From NCBI RefSeq assembly GCF_004217175.1, contig NZ_SHKI01000006.1, positions 1 through 64,000 of the forward strand: a stretch of 64,000 nt of DNA, written 5' to 3'. Numbering within the stretch: the stretch's first letter is position 1; each line of letters opens with the position of its first letter. Made by a program: the position numbers and the translations under genes. Source of the DNA: Leucobacter luti. Lineage in GTDB: Bacteria; Actinomycetota; Actinomycetes; Actinomycetales; Microbacteriaceae. Shown one piece after another: positions 30,190 to 59,996 of the stretch. The notes beneath the pieces are model-generated. The model was not told the origin of the DNA, did no database searches, and worked only from the letters and a program-made list of their open reading frames with translations.

Positions 30190-31013
30190 CGGCGGGCGCG
30201 GGGCAGGGCGCTCCGGCTGGGGCGCTCCGGCGGGGGCGCCCGGGCGGGGCCCGGTCGCTGTCGCGCGCTCTGTTCCCCGCTCTTTGTTTCCCGCGCGCCG
30301 TTTCCCACGAGCGTGCGGCTTTGCGTGCCCGCGCCTGCTGCGTCTGCGCCCGTGCCCGCTGCGTCTGCGCCCGTGCCTGCCGCGCCCGTGCCCGCTGCGT
30401 CCGCGCCCGCTGCGTCCGTGCCCGCTGCGTCCGCGCCCGCGATTCCCACGAGTGGCGGGTTCGCGCGCGAGTGTGCGGCTTGGCTGCGGTTGTGAAGTCG
30501 CACGTTCATGGTGGAGCCGCACGCTCGTGGAGGTGAGACGGGGCGGCGTTCGATCTTGCGCGAGTGTGCGGCTTCGCTCGCCTCGCCGTGGCAGCGCGGG
30601 CCGGGGCCCGGCTGCGGCGACGCCCGCGCCTATCCCGCCCGCACCCCAGCCGCGCCCGTTCCCGTTCCCGTGCCCGCGCCCGCGTTTCCCACGAGTGGCG
30701 GGTTCGCGCGCGAGTGTGCGGCTTGGCTGCGGTTGTGGAGCCGCACGTTCGTGGTTGAGCCGCACGCTCGTGGTTGAGCCGCACGCTCGTTGTGAAGCCG
30801 CACGCTCGTGCTGGAGCCGCGCGCTCGTGATGAAGCCGCGCGCTCGTGATGAAGCCGCACGCTCGTGCGTCACAGGGGAGCCCGGACGGGCACCCGCCCC
30901 AGACGCCCGCCGCGCCCGCCTGCCGCGGGCCCCGCCCATCAGCCAAATGGATGACGCGAGGATCAGTCGTGCCCGCGATTCCCCGCGCGCGGCGTCCTGG
31001 TGGAGTTGATTGC
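30190..31013. repeat. Gene-free repeat region A
   Basis: 824 bp with no credible gene. It contains a 15-bp-type tandem (CTGCGTCCGCGCCCG variants, about 30331-30440), two copies of a 65-bp segment (30443-30507 and 30686-30750, two differences), and an array of cores GCCGCAC-GCTCGTG at 30740, 30759, 30778, 30797, 30816, 30835 and 30854, that is exactly every 19 bp. Inverted copies of the same core (GTGCGGCT) occur upstream at about 30313, 30474, 30566 and 30717. The arms can pair over long distances. Confidence 0.85.
30740..30872. repeat. Seven-copy 19-bp tandem array (AGCCGCACGCTCGTG core)
   Basis: Seven units start at 30740 and every 19 bp after it, sharing GCCGC-CGYTCGT with a 4-5 bp variable spacer. 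A further pair with the same 19-bp spacing (GTCGCAC then GCCGCAC) is at 30498-30523. Confidence 0.9.
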
Positions 31014-35150: not shown

Positions 35151-36212
35151 CTACGCCGCGAGCACGGCGAGCAGCGCGTCGACGTCGTCGGGCTGCGTGT
35201 CCCACGCGCACATGAGCCGGTACAGGTTCGGGTCGCCCGGCCAGGTGCCAAATGCGAAGCGCTCCTGTGCCCGCGCGGCGACGTCGGCCGGCATCGTCGC
35301 GAAGACCGCGTTCGACTCGACGGGGTGCGCGATCCGGATCCCGGAATCCTGCGCCGTGCCCTCGAGGGCGGCGATCCCGGCGGCGAGCCGCGCCGTCATC
35401 GCGTTCGCGTGCGCCGCCGAGTCGCGCCACAGCTCGCCGCCGTAGAGCGCCAGCAGCTGCGCGGAGACGAACCGCATCTTCGAGGCGAGCTGCAGGTCGA
35501 TCTTGCGCAGGAACGGGATGCCCTCGGCTGCGCCCGGGCGCAGCACCACGACGGCCTCGGCTCCGAGCAGGCCGTTCTTCGTGCCGCCGAGGCTGAGCAG
35601 ATCCGCACCCGCCTCGCTGGTGAGCGCCGCCAGGGAGACCCCCAGGTGCGCCGCGGCATTGCCGAGGCGAGAGCCGTCGATGTGGAGCACCATGCCATGC
35701 TCGTGCGCAAATTCGGCCAGCGCGCGGATCTCGTCCGGTGTGTAGCAGGTGCCGAGTTCGGTGCTCTGCGAGATTGAGATCGCGAGGGGCTGCGCGCGGT
35801 GCTCGGAGCCGATGCCCCACACCTCGGCATCGGCGAGCTCGGGCGTGAGCTTGCCGTTCGGGGCGGCCACGCTGAGAAGCTTGAGCCCGCCGGTCTTCTC
35901 GGGGGCACCCGTCTCGTCGCTCGTGATGTGCGCGGTACTGGCGCAGATCACGGCACCCCAGCGCGGCAGCGCGGCCTGCAGCGCGAGCACGTTCGCGCCC
36001 GTCCCGTTCAGCACGGGGAACGCCTCGGCGTCGGCACCGAAGAGTTGGCGCACCCGTTCGCGGAAGCGCGCGGTCCAGGCGTCCCCGCCGTACGCGGGCG
36101 CGTGGCCGGTGTTCGCCTCGGCCAGTGCGGTGAACACCTCGGGGTGGGCGCCGGCCCAGTTGTCGGAGGCGAATGACATGCGGGGCTGGGCGGGAGCGTC
36201 GTGGCTATTCAC
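35151..36212 (-). CDS. ltaE: Low-specificity L-threonine aldolase
   Basis: 353-residue PLP enzyme of fold type I that splits threonine or allo-threonine to glycine and acetaldehyde. The N-terminal SFASDNWAGAHPEVFTAL and AYGGDAWT segments, HIDGSRLGNAAA (D179), and the PLP lysine K212 in LLSLGGTKNGLLGAEA are the family signatures. Monocistronic; the downstream 126 bp contain short GCCGGCTCGCGCAGCTA-like repeats, and the start is 132 nt from the first 62-bp repeat element. Confidence 0.93.
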   Translation of the reverse strand: MNSHDAPAQPRMSFASDNWAGAHPEVFTALAEANTGHAPAYGGDAWTARFRERVRQLFGADAEAFPVLNGTGANVLALQAALPRWGAVICASTAHITSDETGAPEKTGGLKLLSVAAPNGKLTPELADAEVWGIGSEHRAQPLAISISQSTELGTCYTPDEIRALAEFAHEHGMVLHIDGSRLGNAAAHLGVSLAALTSEAGADLLSLGGTKNGLLGAEAVVVLRPGAAEGIPFLRKIDLQLASKMRFVSAQLLALYGGELWRDSAAHANAMTARLAAGIAALEGTAQDSGIRIAHPVESNAVFATMPADVAARAQERFAFGTWPGDPNLYRLMCAWDTQPDDVDALLAVLAA

Positions 36213-36343
36213 AGTTCCACCCTACGCCCGCGGAGCTGGGGCGTGGGCCTGCGGAGCGACCTCGGGGTGGGCGTGTGGGGGCTCGGCTCGAGGGGTGGGT
36301 GGCAGCGTCCGCTCATTCACCCCGTGCACCGCGCAGCGTGCGC

Positions 36344-36405
36344 ATTTCCACACGTTGTTCACAACGTTATCCCCAAGCTGTGGATGAATTACACCGCTGT
36401 AGTTT
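36344..36405. repeat. 62-bp DnaA-box-like element, copy 1
   Basis: Three 9-mers at 36344 (ATTTCCACA), 36355 (TTGTTCACA) and 36367 (TTATCCCCA), an inverted 9-mer TGTGGATGA at 36379, then a degenerate 20-bp palindrome 36386-36405. The palindrome includes the last codons and stop of the CPBP gene on the minus strand. Confidence 0.85.
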
Positions 36406-37324
36406 TCGCCCGTCCACGCCACGCGCGGTACGCGATTCCCGCGCCGATCAGCAAGACCGCGGTGGTGATCAGGCTGCCCTCGGCGCCAAAGGAGCCGCCG
36501 GTGATGAGCTCGTTCGCGCCCTGCACCGGGGTCGTCGTGAGCACTGAATCTTGCGCTTTGCTCCCCGAGACCGCAATGCCAAAAAAGTTTCCCTGCGCCC
36601 AGTTCCACACGCCGTGCATGGCGCACACGCCCCAGAGGCTCCCCTCGGCGAGCGACATGAAGCTCGCGAACACCGCGAAGAGCAGCAGGTTGACGATCGG
36701 CAGCACGCTCATCCCCGGATTCGCGCCGTGGATCGCGGCGAAGAAGACCGCCTGCACGATCACGGCGGCGACGAGCCCCCAGCGCCGGGCCACCGCCTGG
36801 GTGAGGAAGCCGCGGGTGAGGATCTCCTCGGTGGACCCCTGCACGATGAAGCCGAGGAGCATGATCCCAATAAAGAGTAGGGATGCGCCGTCCGGCGCCG
36901 CCCACGAGATGCGGGTCTGGCCGGCCGCGACCGGCACGAGCGCGCAGACGGTGAGCATGAGTGCGCCGATGCCCGCGCCGCGCAGCGCGAGCCGCGGAGC
37001 TGCGGCGCGGCGCTCGAACCCGAGGCTGGCGAACGGCCTGCGCTCCTTGAATCGCACCCACGCCCACACGACCCCGAGCGCAGCTGTGAACGACAGCAGT
37101 GACATGACCACGCCCAGCGGTGTCGCCGAGAACGCCGCGACCATCTCAGCGAGGGAACCACTCGGTGAAGAACTACCAGCGTTCGCCAGGTGCGCGCAGA
37201 CGACCGTGAACACTGTTTGCATCACGCCCGCGAGCGCGAAGACCACGAGCGCCATCACAATGCCCGTGGGACGCCGTGCACGGAGCATCCCGTTGGCGGG
37301 GGCGGGGAGAGTGCGAGTATCCAT
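36389..37324 (-). CDS. CPBP-family intramembrane metalloprotease
   Basis: 311 residues from ATG 37324, with about eight hydrophobic segments. Motifs of the CPBP/Abi family are intact: E166-E167-ILT-R171, H199 in VFFAAIHGAN, and H237-xxx-N241 in MHGVWNWAQG. The substrate is unknown; homologues range from CAAX-type proteases to bacteriocin self-immunity proteins. A TATAAT box ends one base before this ATG, so if that promoter is real translation starts later (ATG 37288 is next); GGAG further upstream supports the given start. The gene is bracketed by two direct copies of the 62-bp DnaA-box-like element. Confidence 0.85.
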   Translation of the reverse strand: MDTRTLPAPANGMLRARRPTGIVMALVVFALAGVMQTVFTVVCAHLANAGSSSPSGSLAEMVAAFSATPLGVVMSLLSFTAALGVVWAWVRFKERRPFASLGFERRAAAPRLALRGAGIGALMLTVCALVPVAAGQTRISWAAPDGASLLFIGIMLLGFIVQGSTEEILTRGFLTQAVARRWGLVAAVIVQAVFFAAIHGANPGMSVLPIVNLLLFAVFASFMSLAEGSLWGVCAMHGVWNWAQGNFFGIAVSGSKAQDSVLTTTPVQGANELITGGSFGAEGSLITTAVLLIGAGIAYRAWRGRAKTTAV

Positions 37325-37325
37325 A

Positions 37326-37331
37326 ATTATA
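37326..37331 (-). promoter_or_regulatory. Perfect -10 hexamer TATAAT
   Basis: TATAAT on the minus strand, rare in this GC background, lies directly before the predicted CPBP start. It either drives the CPBP gene with a start codon further in, or the predicted start is wrong. Confidence 0.5.
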
Positions 37332-37366
37332 GGACTCCGTCCATAGTTGGCTGACGTCACTCTACT

Positions 37367-37428
37367 CTGTCCACAAGTTGTCCACAGGACTGTCCCCAGA
37401 GTGTGGATGAATTACACCGGTGTAATTC
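37367..37428. repeat. 62-bp DnaA-box-like element, copy 2
   Basis: 9-mers at 37367 (CTGTCCACA), 37378 (TTGTCCACA, a perfect actinobacterial DnaA box) and 37390 (CTGTCCCCA), an inverted TGTGGATGA at 37402, and a perfect 20-bp palindrome GAATTACACCGGTGTAATTC at 37409-37428. Spacing is identical to copy 1. Confidence 0.88.
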
Positions 37429-37504
37429 GCGGCGAATCCGACCCGGACCGGGTACTTCGCCGGGAGCACGCGGACGCGGCCCTGACACGACCCGAAGCAG
37501 CACC

Positions 37505-37577
37505 TTTTCCACACGTTTTCCCCAAGTTGTCCACAGACCTGTCCCCAGGCTGTGGATGAGTTACACGGGTGTAGTTC
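37505..37577. repeat. 62-bp DnaA-box-like element, copy 3, with one extra box
   Basis: An extra box TTTTCCACA at 37505 precedes the element proper: TTTTCCCCA 37516, TTGTCCACA 37527 (perfect DnaA box), CTGTCCCCA 37539, inverted TGTGGATGA 37551, palindrome 37558-37577. The remaining intergenic DNA up to 37719 holds GC-rich repeats of GCGGGAACGTGTGCG type but no gene. Confidence 0.88.
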
Positions 37578-37719
37578 CTCGCGCCGGCGAATGGGCGCGG
37601 GAACGTGTGCGGGAGCGTGCGCGGACGGACGGACGGGCGGGAACTGGGCGGGAACGTGTGCGAGAGCGGGGGCAGGCGCGGGCGGGAATGGCCGGGCGCG
37701 GCGGCTGTCCGCTCGACCC

Positions 37720-38382
37720 CTACGACTGCAGTCGCGGGTCGTAGGTGGGGTCCCAGTAGAGCGTGGGGCACCCGACAGTGGGGGCATCGGGCCGCAGCTC
37801 GAAGTGCCAGGGCTCGTTGTCGTAGATCTGGCACAGCCCGTACTGCTGCCCGTGTGCGGCGAGCCAGTCGGCCGCGCCCCACGGGCCCACGTCCACGGCC
37901 TCGCCCGCGACGTGGGCCGAGGTCTCTGGCGTGGCGACCCAGCGCGCCGCTTCGGCCGCCGAGCCGTAGTCGGTCACGGCGTCGGTGAGCAGCCGCTCCT
38001 GGTACGCGGCGGAGCGCCAGCCGCTCGTGACCGTCATCTCAAAGCCCACCGCCTCGGCCTCCGTCGCCGCGGCACGCAGCGCCTCGAGCAGGCCGGGGGC
38101 GAGCCCGGTGACGCCCGGCTGGTCCTCGCTCCACACCGAGGTGCCCTCGGGCAGGGCGCCGTCCGCCTCCGTCGGACCCGCGTCGTCCGCCCCGCTCTCG
38201 GGATTCGACTCCTGCGTTCGGGCGGCGGGCACCTCACCTCGCGCGGCTCCCAGCGCGTTGACGCCGGTGATCTGGGCGACCGCAACACCCGCGATCAGCG
38301 CGATGGCGACGGCCGCACCGGTGATGATGAGTCCTGGAACGATGGCTTTGCGGAGCTTGAGGCCGCGGGATTCGTAGCGCAT
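37720..38382 (-). CDS. VanY-type D,D-carboxypeptidase (M15B)
   Basis: 220 residues. An N-terminal basic stretch and one membrane helix (~11-40) anchor an extracytoplasmic M15 peptidase domain. The zinc and catalytic residues are visible: H157 and D164 in SAHVAGEAVDVG, E190 and H193 in NEPWHFEL, with substrate motif SGWRSAAYQERL. It should remove the terminal D-alanine of peptidoglycan stem peptides. It is divergent from a VanR/VanS-like pair; in vancomycin-resistance clusters such a trio works together, but vanHAX are absent here, so a cell-wall-maintenance role is more likely. Confidence 0.9.
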   Translation of the reverse strand: MRYESRGLKLRKAIVPGLIITGAAVAIALIAGVAVAQITGVNALGAARGEVPAARTQESNPESGADDAGPTEADGALPEGTSVWSEDQPGVTGLAPGLLEALRAAATEAEAVGFEMTVTSGWRSAAYQERLLTDAVTDYGSAAEAARWVATPETSAHVAGEAVDVGPWGAADWLAAHGQQYGLCQIYDNEPWHFELRPDAPTVGCPTLYWDPTYDPRLQS

Positions 38383-57385: not shown

Positions 57386-57461
57386 GCCGCCTTAGCTCAG
57401 TTGGTAGAGCGATTCACTCGTAATGAATAGGTCGTCAGTTCGATTCTGACAGGTGGCTCCA
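57386..57461 (+). tRNA. tRNA-Thr (CGT anticodon)
   Basis: 76 nt including an encoded CCA. The acceptor stem GCCGCCT pairs with AGGTGGC (one G-U); the D-arm is GCTCAGTTGGTAGAGC; the anticodon stem ATTCA/TGAAT holds loop CTCGTAA, anticodon CGT; the T-arm contains TTCGATT. A small hairpin (TGCGCGA/TCGCGCA) lies just upstream at about 57361-57383. No integrase or duplicated 3' end was found. Confidence 0.96.
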
Positions 57462-59206: not shown

Positions 59207-59996
59207 GAGGGGCGCCTGCTCCTGCGCGCGGCGCCCCTGTGCGTGGCGCTTGGCCGCTGACGGCGCAGGTCCGACCCGGCCACGCAGGTCCGACCCGTTA
59301 GCGCAGATCCGACCTGGTCGCGCACATCCGACCCGCTAGCGCAGCTCCGCCCCTGTTTGGGGGCGGAACGCGGCGGTGGCGCGGGTCGGATGTGGGGGAT
59401 CGGGTCGGATCTTCGGGTGGTAGGCGCCGGGCGTGGTCGGGCGCTCGGTCCGACGCGCGGCTGCTGCGCGGGCGCGCGCGTTCACCGGGGTCTGCGCGCA
59501 CGCGCGGATGGCCGATCGGGCGCGCCCGAGACCGGCCGCTCGGCCGCCGCCGGCGCAGGTCCGACCCTGTCGCGCAGGTCCGACCCTGTCGCGTAGGTCC
59601 GACCCTGTCGCGTAGGTCCGACCCTGTCGCGTAGGTCCGACCCTGTCGCGCAGCTCCGACCCTCTAGTGCAGATCCGACCCTGTTTGGGGGCGGAACGCG
59701 ACGGTGGCGCGGGTCGGATGTGTGGGATCGGGTCGGATCTGCGCCCCGCCCGGACGGAGCTTAGCCCCGCCCGCCCGTCCGCCCGCAAACACAGTCCAGC
59801 GGCGCCCGCCGGCCCGTGCCGCCCGCCGCGCGGCAGACCGCAGGCCCAGCGGCCCTCGCAGCGGGCGCAGCGGCCTACGCAGCAGGCCCAGCGGCCTACG
59901 AGCGGGCGCAGCGGGCCCAGAGGCCCACGCAGCGGCCCACGCAGCGGGCCCAGCGGCCCACGCAGCGGGCGCCGGGCCCGCGCCGCAGGTCGGGGC
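59207..59996. repeat. Gene-free repeat region C
   Basis: 790 bp, no gene. The core GTCCGACCC (variants ATCC, CTCC) occurs at 59269, 59288, 59307, 59326, 59345 and at 59559, 59578, 59597, 59616, 59635, 59654, 59673: two arrays each with exact 19-bp spacing. Each is followed by an inverted core GGGTCGGAT pair (59383/59402 and the copy near 59711/59730), again 19 bp apart, within a 60-bp duplicated block (59353-59412 and 59681-59740, two differences). Beyond 59780 come GC-rich CAGCGGCC-type short repeats. Confidence 0.88.
59554..59680. repeat. Seven-copy 19-bp tandem array (GTCGCGTAGGTCCGACCCT unit)
   Basis: Units repeat every 19 bp; the middle copies are identical and the outer ones diverge (GCAGCTCCGAC, GCAGATCCGAC), as expected for an array that grows internally. 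Confidence 0.92.

Follow-up and report, generated by a model that had tools for sequence, protein, structure and literature searches.

What is the 62-bp element that occurs in three copies in this 64,000-nucleotide stretch of the Leucobacter luti genome (the window), and which proteins would it bind? A preliminary description of the window had read it as a DnaA-box array joined to a palindrome at rigid spacing. A pattern scan and a repeat search confirmed the three copies and their identical offsets, with 9-mers at 0, 11, and 23, then the inverted TGTGGATGA (offset 35) and the 20-bp palindrome (offset 42) (starts 36344, 37367, and 37516). The extra box described ahead of copy 3 was also present, as were the two exact TTGTCCACA boxes, one in copy 2 and one in copy 3, and the perfect palindrome of copy 2. 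Coordinates of the copies and of the neighbouring genes are given in Table 1.

Table 1. Positions in the window of the element copies, the candidate operators within them, and the neighbouring genes.
Feature	Position	Strand	Details
Element copy 1	36344..36405	+	Boxes 36344-36352, 36355-36363, 36367-36375; inverted box 36379-36387; palindrome 36386-36405
Candidate McdR/ResR operator, copy 1	36387..36404	.	AATTACACCGCTGTAGTT, 1 mismatch to the published motif (PMC9040748)
Element copy 2	37367..37428	+	Boxes 37367-37375, 37378-37386 (exact TTGTCCACA), 37390-37398; inverted box 37402-37410; palindrome 37409-37428
Candidate McdR/ResR operator, copy 2	37410..37427	.	AATTACACCGGTGTAATT, exact match to the published motif
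Element copy 3	37505..37577	+	Extra box 37505-37513; boxes 37516-37524, 37527-37535 (exact TTGTCCACA), 37539-37547; inverted box 37551-37559; palindrome 37558-37577
Candidate McdR/ResR operator, copy 3	37559..37576	.	AGTTACACGGGTGTAGTT, 2 mismatches
CPBP (Rce1-like) membrane protein gene	36389..37360	-	Pfam; between copies 1 and 2; stop codon within the copy 1 palindrome
Beta-eliminating lyase (threonine-aldolase-like) gene	35151..36212	-	Pfam; neighbour kept at this locus in relatives
VanY-type D-alanyl-D-alanine carboxypeptidase gene	37720..38382	-	Pfam; neighbour

The repeat search placed the copies in one ungapped 60-nt family, in which copies 2 and 3 were 78% and 80% identical to copy 1. 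Compared pairwise over 62 nt, the copies shared 47, 48, and 52 bases (76-84%), and in 20 shuffled windows copy 2 matched at most 32 bases (prefiltered scan, mononucleotide shuffles). Each copy showed the cluster of several TTRTCCACA-type 9-mers within a short span that marks a DnaA-box cluster, and the family-level consensus of the DnaA-type box was GTTATCCACAGGnTTATCCACA. Of the six 9-mers in the window that differ from TTGTCCACA by at most one mismatch, five lay inside the copies; a total of six per 64 kb is not unusual in itself (shuffle mean 3.9; at least six in 16 of 100 shuffles). The site is not at dnaA-dnaN, where oriC would be expected, since dnaA lies at G000:C2:510261 and the window on another contig, C5. 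Elsewhere in the window we noted the end of the 5S rRNA at its start (1-87), a tRNA gene (57386-57458), and two stretches of 19-bp tandem repeats of about seven copies each (30735-30867 and 59553-59684).

We then searched the own genome and its relatives with three profiles: R1, built from the sequences of the three window copies only, the broader R2, and the phylum profile R3. At most 72 (R1, genus), 28 (R2, family), and 14 (R3, phylum) candidates were scored per genome, so that absences are soft. A strict pattern scan of the own genome (G000) returned the three window copies only, and R1 added one full element at C2:569098 and one box array without a palindrome at C2:493242 (L039), 17 kb upstream of dnaA. 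At a further locus, about 26 kb upstream of dnaA (L079, G000:C2:484348), the space between a metallophosphatase-like gene and a HisC-like gene held a palindrome with one mismatch, close to DnaA-type boxes. R1 matched 53 of 54 genus genomes and R2 181 of 199 family genomes, the own genome included in both counts. Most of the 18 family genomes without an R2 match were smaller than 2.5 Mb (15 of 18), and because at least one of the 18 (G098) has an exact palindrome after an apparent crgA (L124), the R2 scan misses some elements. R3 matched 111 of 398 phylum genomes; its best match spanned boxes and palindrome in 70 of the 111, and 63 of these 70 started within the first five profile positions. 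The other best matches were partial and covered mainly the box array (about profile positions 1-34).

The conserved copy has a home beside crgA, a cell-division gene. With CrgA queries, three of them taken from loci within the set, crgA adjoined the best-scoring loci in 21 of 29 cases in the genus, 30 of 30 in the family, and 26 of 27 in the phylum; the remaining eight of the 29 genus loci had no crgA beside them. The position of dnaA was established in 26 genomes. The R1 match that scored highest within 100 kb of it was this crgA-side copy in 24 of them, 16.5-58.8 kb downstream, and the other two (G011 and G025) had no R1 match on the dnaA contig within 100 kb. Three of the 26 (G000, G003, and G029) had a weaker extra match 17-22 kb upstream. 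The home site of the own genome (C2:569101-569153) lies about 59 kb downstream of dnaA. The home site is 3' of crgA and, in the genus, between convergent 3' ends, as in G022, where a rhomboid-like gene and crgA (CrgA, PF06781) face each other across the gap. A Nocardioides element (L037) likewise lies between rhomboid-like and CrgA-like genes, and the crgA-side stretches of two mycobacteria-like and two family genomes each held a box, a second box, an inverted box, and a one-mismatch McdR motif. In a Frankiaceae metagenome-assembled genome (L035), an inverted DnaA box and a palindrome preceded an NrdR-like gene, and the next gene resembled a class II ribonucleotide reductase. Pfam matches gave the CrgA, WhiB, DUF3263, CPBP, VanY, lyase, and MerR_1 labels; rhomboid, FbiA, GarA, FtsR, NrdR, and HisC are our presumptive assignments, and the terms mycobacteria-like (f9 g96) and Streptomyces-like (f8) were inferred from CrgA, WhiB2/FbiA, and McdR sequences.

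The profile search proposed in the preliminary description thus found conserved copies in the genome and its relatives. The counts, the crgA adjacency, and the distance to dnaA lend good support to its suggestion of a conserved, replication-linked site that a protein may bind.

The palindrome points to a second protein. McdR/ResR (Rv1830), a MerR_1-family protein conserved in the phylum, has the operator AATnACAnnnnTGTnATT and represses whiB2 through binding there, and altering the spacer length of the motif abolished binding (PMC9040748). Against this published motif the window palindromes had 1, 0, and 2 mismatches in copies 1, 2, and 3, with a 4-bp spacer throughout. Allowing three mismatches, the motif occurred seven times in the window (the three copies and four others with three mismatches), compared with a shuffle mean of 1.1 and no shuffle out of 100 that reached seven. 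Exact copies of the palindrome ATTACACnnGTGTAAT were present in 47 of the 199 family genomes; the reversed sequence, used as a control, had none.

The exact-palindrome search gave 29 new loci (L115-L143), 14 of which were picked by eye as promoter-like. The palindrome lay over the -10 region of a TTGAC promoter in 13 of these 14, and WhiB2 followed in frame in nine of the 13. The own-genome whiB2 promoter (L082) carried the palindrome with two mismatches, and in the mycobacteria-like genomes a variant of it stood at whiB2, beside an fbiA-like gene. A second setting was the DUF3263 promoter, where a palindrome with at most two mismatches was present in 12 of 30 loci; six family DUF3263 loci yielded only one palindrome with two mismatches. 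The whiB2 and DUF3263 settings, found from the palindrome alone before the motif was known to us, pointed to McdR/ResR. We take Rv0430/MSMEG_0833 to be a DUF3263 gene. The published direct targets of McdR are whiB2, MSMEG_0833, and MSMEG_5468; the homologue of MSMEG_0833 is Rv0430 (printed in places as MSMEG_0083 and Rv0340), and the Rv0430 promoter itself had no motif and no McdR binding (PMC9040748). A figure legend of that report gives five DIP-seq peaks, three of them named in its text (PMC9040748). Sixteen exact palindromes occurred in 18 diverse genomes, and four of them (L172, L181, L184, and L185) matched no known target. The one at L181 (G637) is just upstream of a protein that starts MESINLGAVLF and has no Pfam match.

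The palindrome is therefore a candidate McdR/ResR operator and not a DnaA site. The array and palindrome of the preliminary description held up as a conserved site, but the palindrome as a part of the DnaA array did not, as it matches a separate operator. Other binders were considered and dropped. A DUF3263 gene (PF11662) was found in 0 of 18 genus genomes, the own genome included, and is present in family f8, which has no full element among the matches listed; DUF3263 is a target and not the palindrome binder. The sites of BldD, NrdR, MtrA, CRP, ParB, and Noc differ in half-site or spacer. FtsR has a different published motif, AACCCTAAAGTAAAGGTTGAGGGTA (PMC6683498). At L126 and some sister whiB2 promoters we observed AACCCT-N13-AGGGTT upstream, which matches the published 25-bp FtsR repeat (PMC6683498), and in this family whiB2 may be regulated by FtsR as well as McdR.

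McdR itself occurs in the lineage. The same-genus genome G022 encodes an orthologue (72% identity over 150 aa, MerR_1 domain) in a garA-ftsR-mcdR cluster. Of 22 loci with a BFN-domain gene (19 genomes), 17 had a McdR orthologue beside it, and 14 of the 17 also had garA and ftsR matches; the BFN-domain gene was found in 0 of 6 genus genomes searched. Both Streptomyces-like (f8) genomes examined had McdR, with no full-length element among the phylum matches listed for that family, which suggests, weakly given 14 candidates per genome, that McdR can do without the element. Of 21 genus genomes, 19 had a weaker McdR-like site, ACAAsTsACAnnnnTGTrrTT, no more than 600 nt after dnaA, as a rule with two mismatches; it was absent in L069 and weak in L071. 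In ten other genomes it was present in five, weak (three mismatches) in L292, L293, and L295, and missing in both mycobacteria-like genomes examined (L284 and L285), with L290 and L294 excluded from the count as no dnaA was obtained. For most genomes the best match was reached in 0-3% of single-genome mononucleotide shuffles.

The element would consist of a tandem row of two to four DnaA boxes, spaced at about 11-12 bp, followed by an inverted box that overlaps the putative McdR palindrome by 1-2 bp. Since the last one or two bases of the inverted box belong to the operator, binding of the one protein would be expected to affect that of the other. The simplest reading, which we favour with modest confidence, is a composite site near the origin for the control of DnaA, with an innermost box that shares bases with a McdR operator, such that McdR would displace or recruit DnaA. 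Among cores with a box within 25 bp, the gap from the inverted box (TGKGGA) to the ACA core of the palindrome measured 5 or 6 bp for 49 of 54 in the genus, 28 of 30 in the family, and 17 of 22 in the phylum. Loosely matched cores with no such box numbered 56 in the genus, 22 in the family, and 21 in the phylum, and many of these were taken as the same palindromes read on the opposite strand. The rigid spacing claimed for the element thus extends to relatives for the junction of inverted box and palindrome but not for the whole array, as at the window-type locus the upstream boxes have decayed in several relatives while the inverted box and palindrome were kept. These observations also weigh on an alternative, a plain DnaA titration site in which only the boxes matter and the McdR operator is an incidental, separate neighbour. 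Arrays of boxes with no palindrome do occur, at G000:C2:493242 and among the phylum matches at about profile positions 1-34, but the 5-6 bp gap is kept across families and it is the inverted box and palindrome that the decayed arrays retain, so that we consider plain titration unlikely.

The window copies are a second, origin-linked array of the genus, apart from the crgA-side home site. We examined 11 window-type stretches of 10-13 kb in relatives, a sample of a larger number, each of which carried the window's lyase or its GntR-ABC group with at least 66% identity. The distance to dnaA could be measured in eight relatives. Seven of them had the window-type array 127-216 kb from dnaA, on one contig with it and to the same side; in the eighth (G001) a circular contig would put it about 224 kb away in the other direction. 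The last codons and the stop of the CPBP gene fall in the copy 1 palindrome, so that its gene end is supplied by the element. The preliminary description had proposed that copies 1 and 2, as direct repeats, allow cassette-like gain or loss of this gene, and a mobile or repeat element could be suspected from three direct-repeat copies within 1.2 kb. This did not bear out. A CPBP match was present in four of the 11 stretches and absent from seven, which keep the element all the same; one relative (L041) has CPBP bracketed by two copies likewise, and the repeats are only 76-84% alike. Moreover, similarity past the element limits was confined to copies 2 and 3 (103 nt at 74%), the crgA-linked site recurs across families, and no mobility gene was found among six window proteins scanned with Pfam. 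The CPBP gene appears to have been gained or lost around a persistent element, nothing beyond the geometry speaks for repeat-driven excision, and we give the mobile or cassette explanation almost no chance.

Transcriptional control of a neighbour (crgA, CPBP, VanY, or lyase) by DnaA and McdR at the element has more to recommend it, as McdR is a transcription factor whose whiB2 site overlaps the -10 region, and CPBP has copies 2 and 3 upstream of it. However, a scan for sigma-70-type promoters, which covers only part of the actinobacterial promoter types, found no promoter-like site in 36200-37750, and the gene neighbours of the window-type site vary among relatives. Together with the position of the home site 3' of crgA, between convergent 3' ends, the lack of a promoter-like site argues against ordinary promoter control, and we regard this explanation as distinctly improbable. 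The origin-proximal location and the few copies per genome would also suit an anchor for chromosome architecture or segregation near oriC, at which McdR and DnaA would bind in a structural role. Both sites belong to regulators by their published or textbook role, though, the loci inspected showed no segregation gene alongside, and such an anchor seems to us very unlikely.

For the composite DnaA control site, the sequence of events could be as follows. DnaA would occupy the boxes, and McdR, overlapping the innermost box, would either compete with DnaA or join it in one complex. The site may hold or inactivate DnaA soon after initiation, so that the level of McdR would tune the amount of DnaA available to oriC, and McdR would at the same time lower whiB2 and with it division. 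Overexpression of mcdR raised the copy number of origin-proximal DNA, together with dnaN, dnaB, and recA (PMC9040748). Excess McdR evicting DnaA from the site, and thereby freeing it for oriC, is one possible cause, and the element could thus explain the raised copy number. Because dnaN, dnaB, and recA also rise (PMC9040748), the effect, known from overexpression alone, could be indirect. The basis for this reading in our analysis is the anatomy, conservation, and genomic position of the element, the identity of the palindrome with the McdR motif, and the McdR orthologue in a relative. More broadly, and more tentatively, a role somewhat short of probable is that the Actinobacteria element beside crgA near the origin serves as a McdR-switchable DnaA sink or DnaA-ATP converter, through which one regulator would both repress whiB2 and release DnaA. 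If true, this would be a direct link at the DNA level between division control and replication timing.

To our knowledge, the restraint of DnaA away from oriC in actinobacteria is poorly known. Control sites with DnaA boxes outside oriC are known, and so is the McdR operator; what appears to be new is their composite beside crgA. Searches of the openly licensed literature, judged mostly by title, gave no description of the composite element and none of DnaA boxes beside crgA; a search of the same literature for ACACCGGTGT, judged likewise, gave no relevant match, with one oriC paper containing the string within primers. The mycobacterial McdR/ResR operator shares with the window element the palindrome AATnACAnnnnTGTnATT and the whiB2 and DUF3263-type targets, but the sites in the main text of that report are promoters, and none of them is joined to DnaA boxes or beside crgA (PMC9040748). 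As a cell-division regulator McdR/ResR has been linked to drug resilience in tuberculosis (PMC10336103; PMC9040748). The joining of DnaA boxes to a candidate operator of a division regulator would offer a testable route through which replication timing could be set by division control.

Among known DnaA-box clusters, Smulczyk-Krawczyszyn (2006) is said to have described one in Streptomyces that affects replication. Like the window element it is an actinobacterial cluster outside oriC, but no full-length element was among the phylum matches listed for the Streptomyces-like family f8 (at most 14 candidates per genome), and we know of no McdR site in the Streptomyces cluster. In Escherichia coli, datA acts by IHF-dependent hydrolysis of DnaA-ATP, and DARS by a box I/II/III core that exchanges DnaA-bound ADP. 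The window element resembles datA (PMC4585315) as a noncoding DnaA-box cluster away from oriC with a site for a second protein, and differs in that the partner is IHF in datA and would be a MerR regulator here, with unrelated sequence and locus. DARS1 and DARS2 (PMC8682772; PMC4585315) have a small DnaA-box core with one box inverted, fixed spacing, and accessory protein sites, but their partner protein is another one, spacing and sequence are not shared, and the layout is only loosely similar. By this analogy, the best reading of the window element is that it would be datA/DARS-like in logic.
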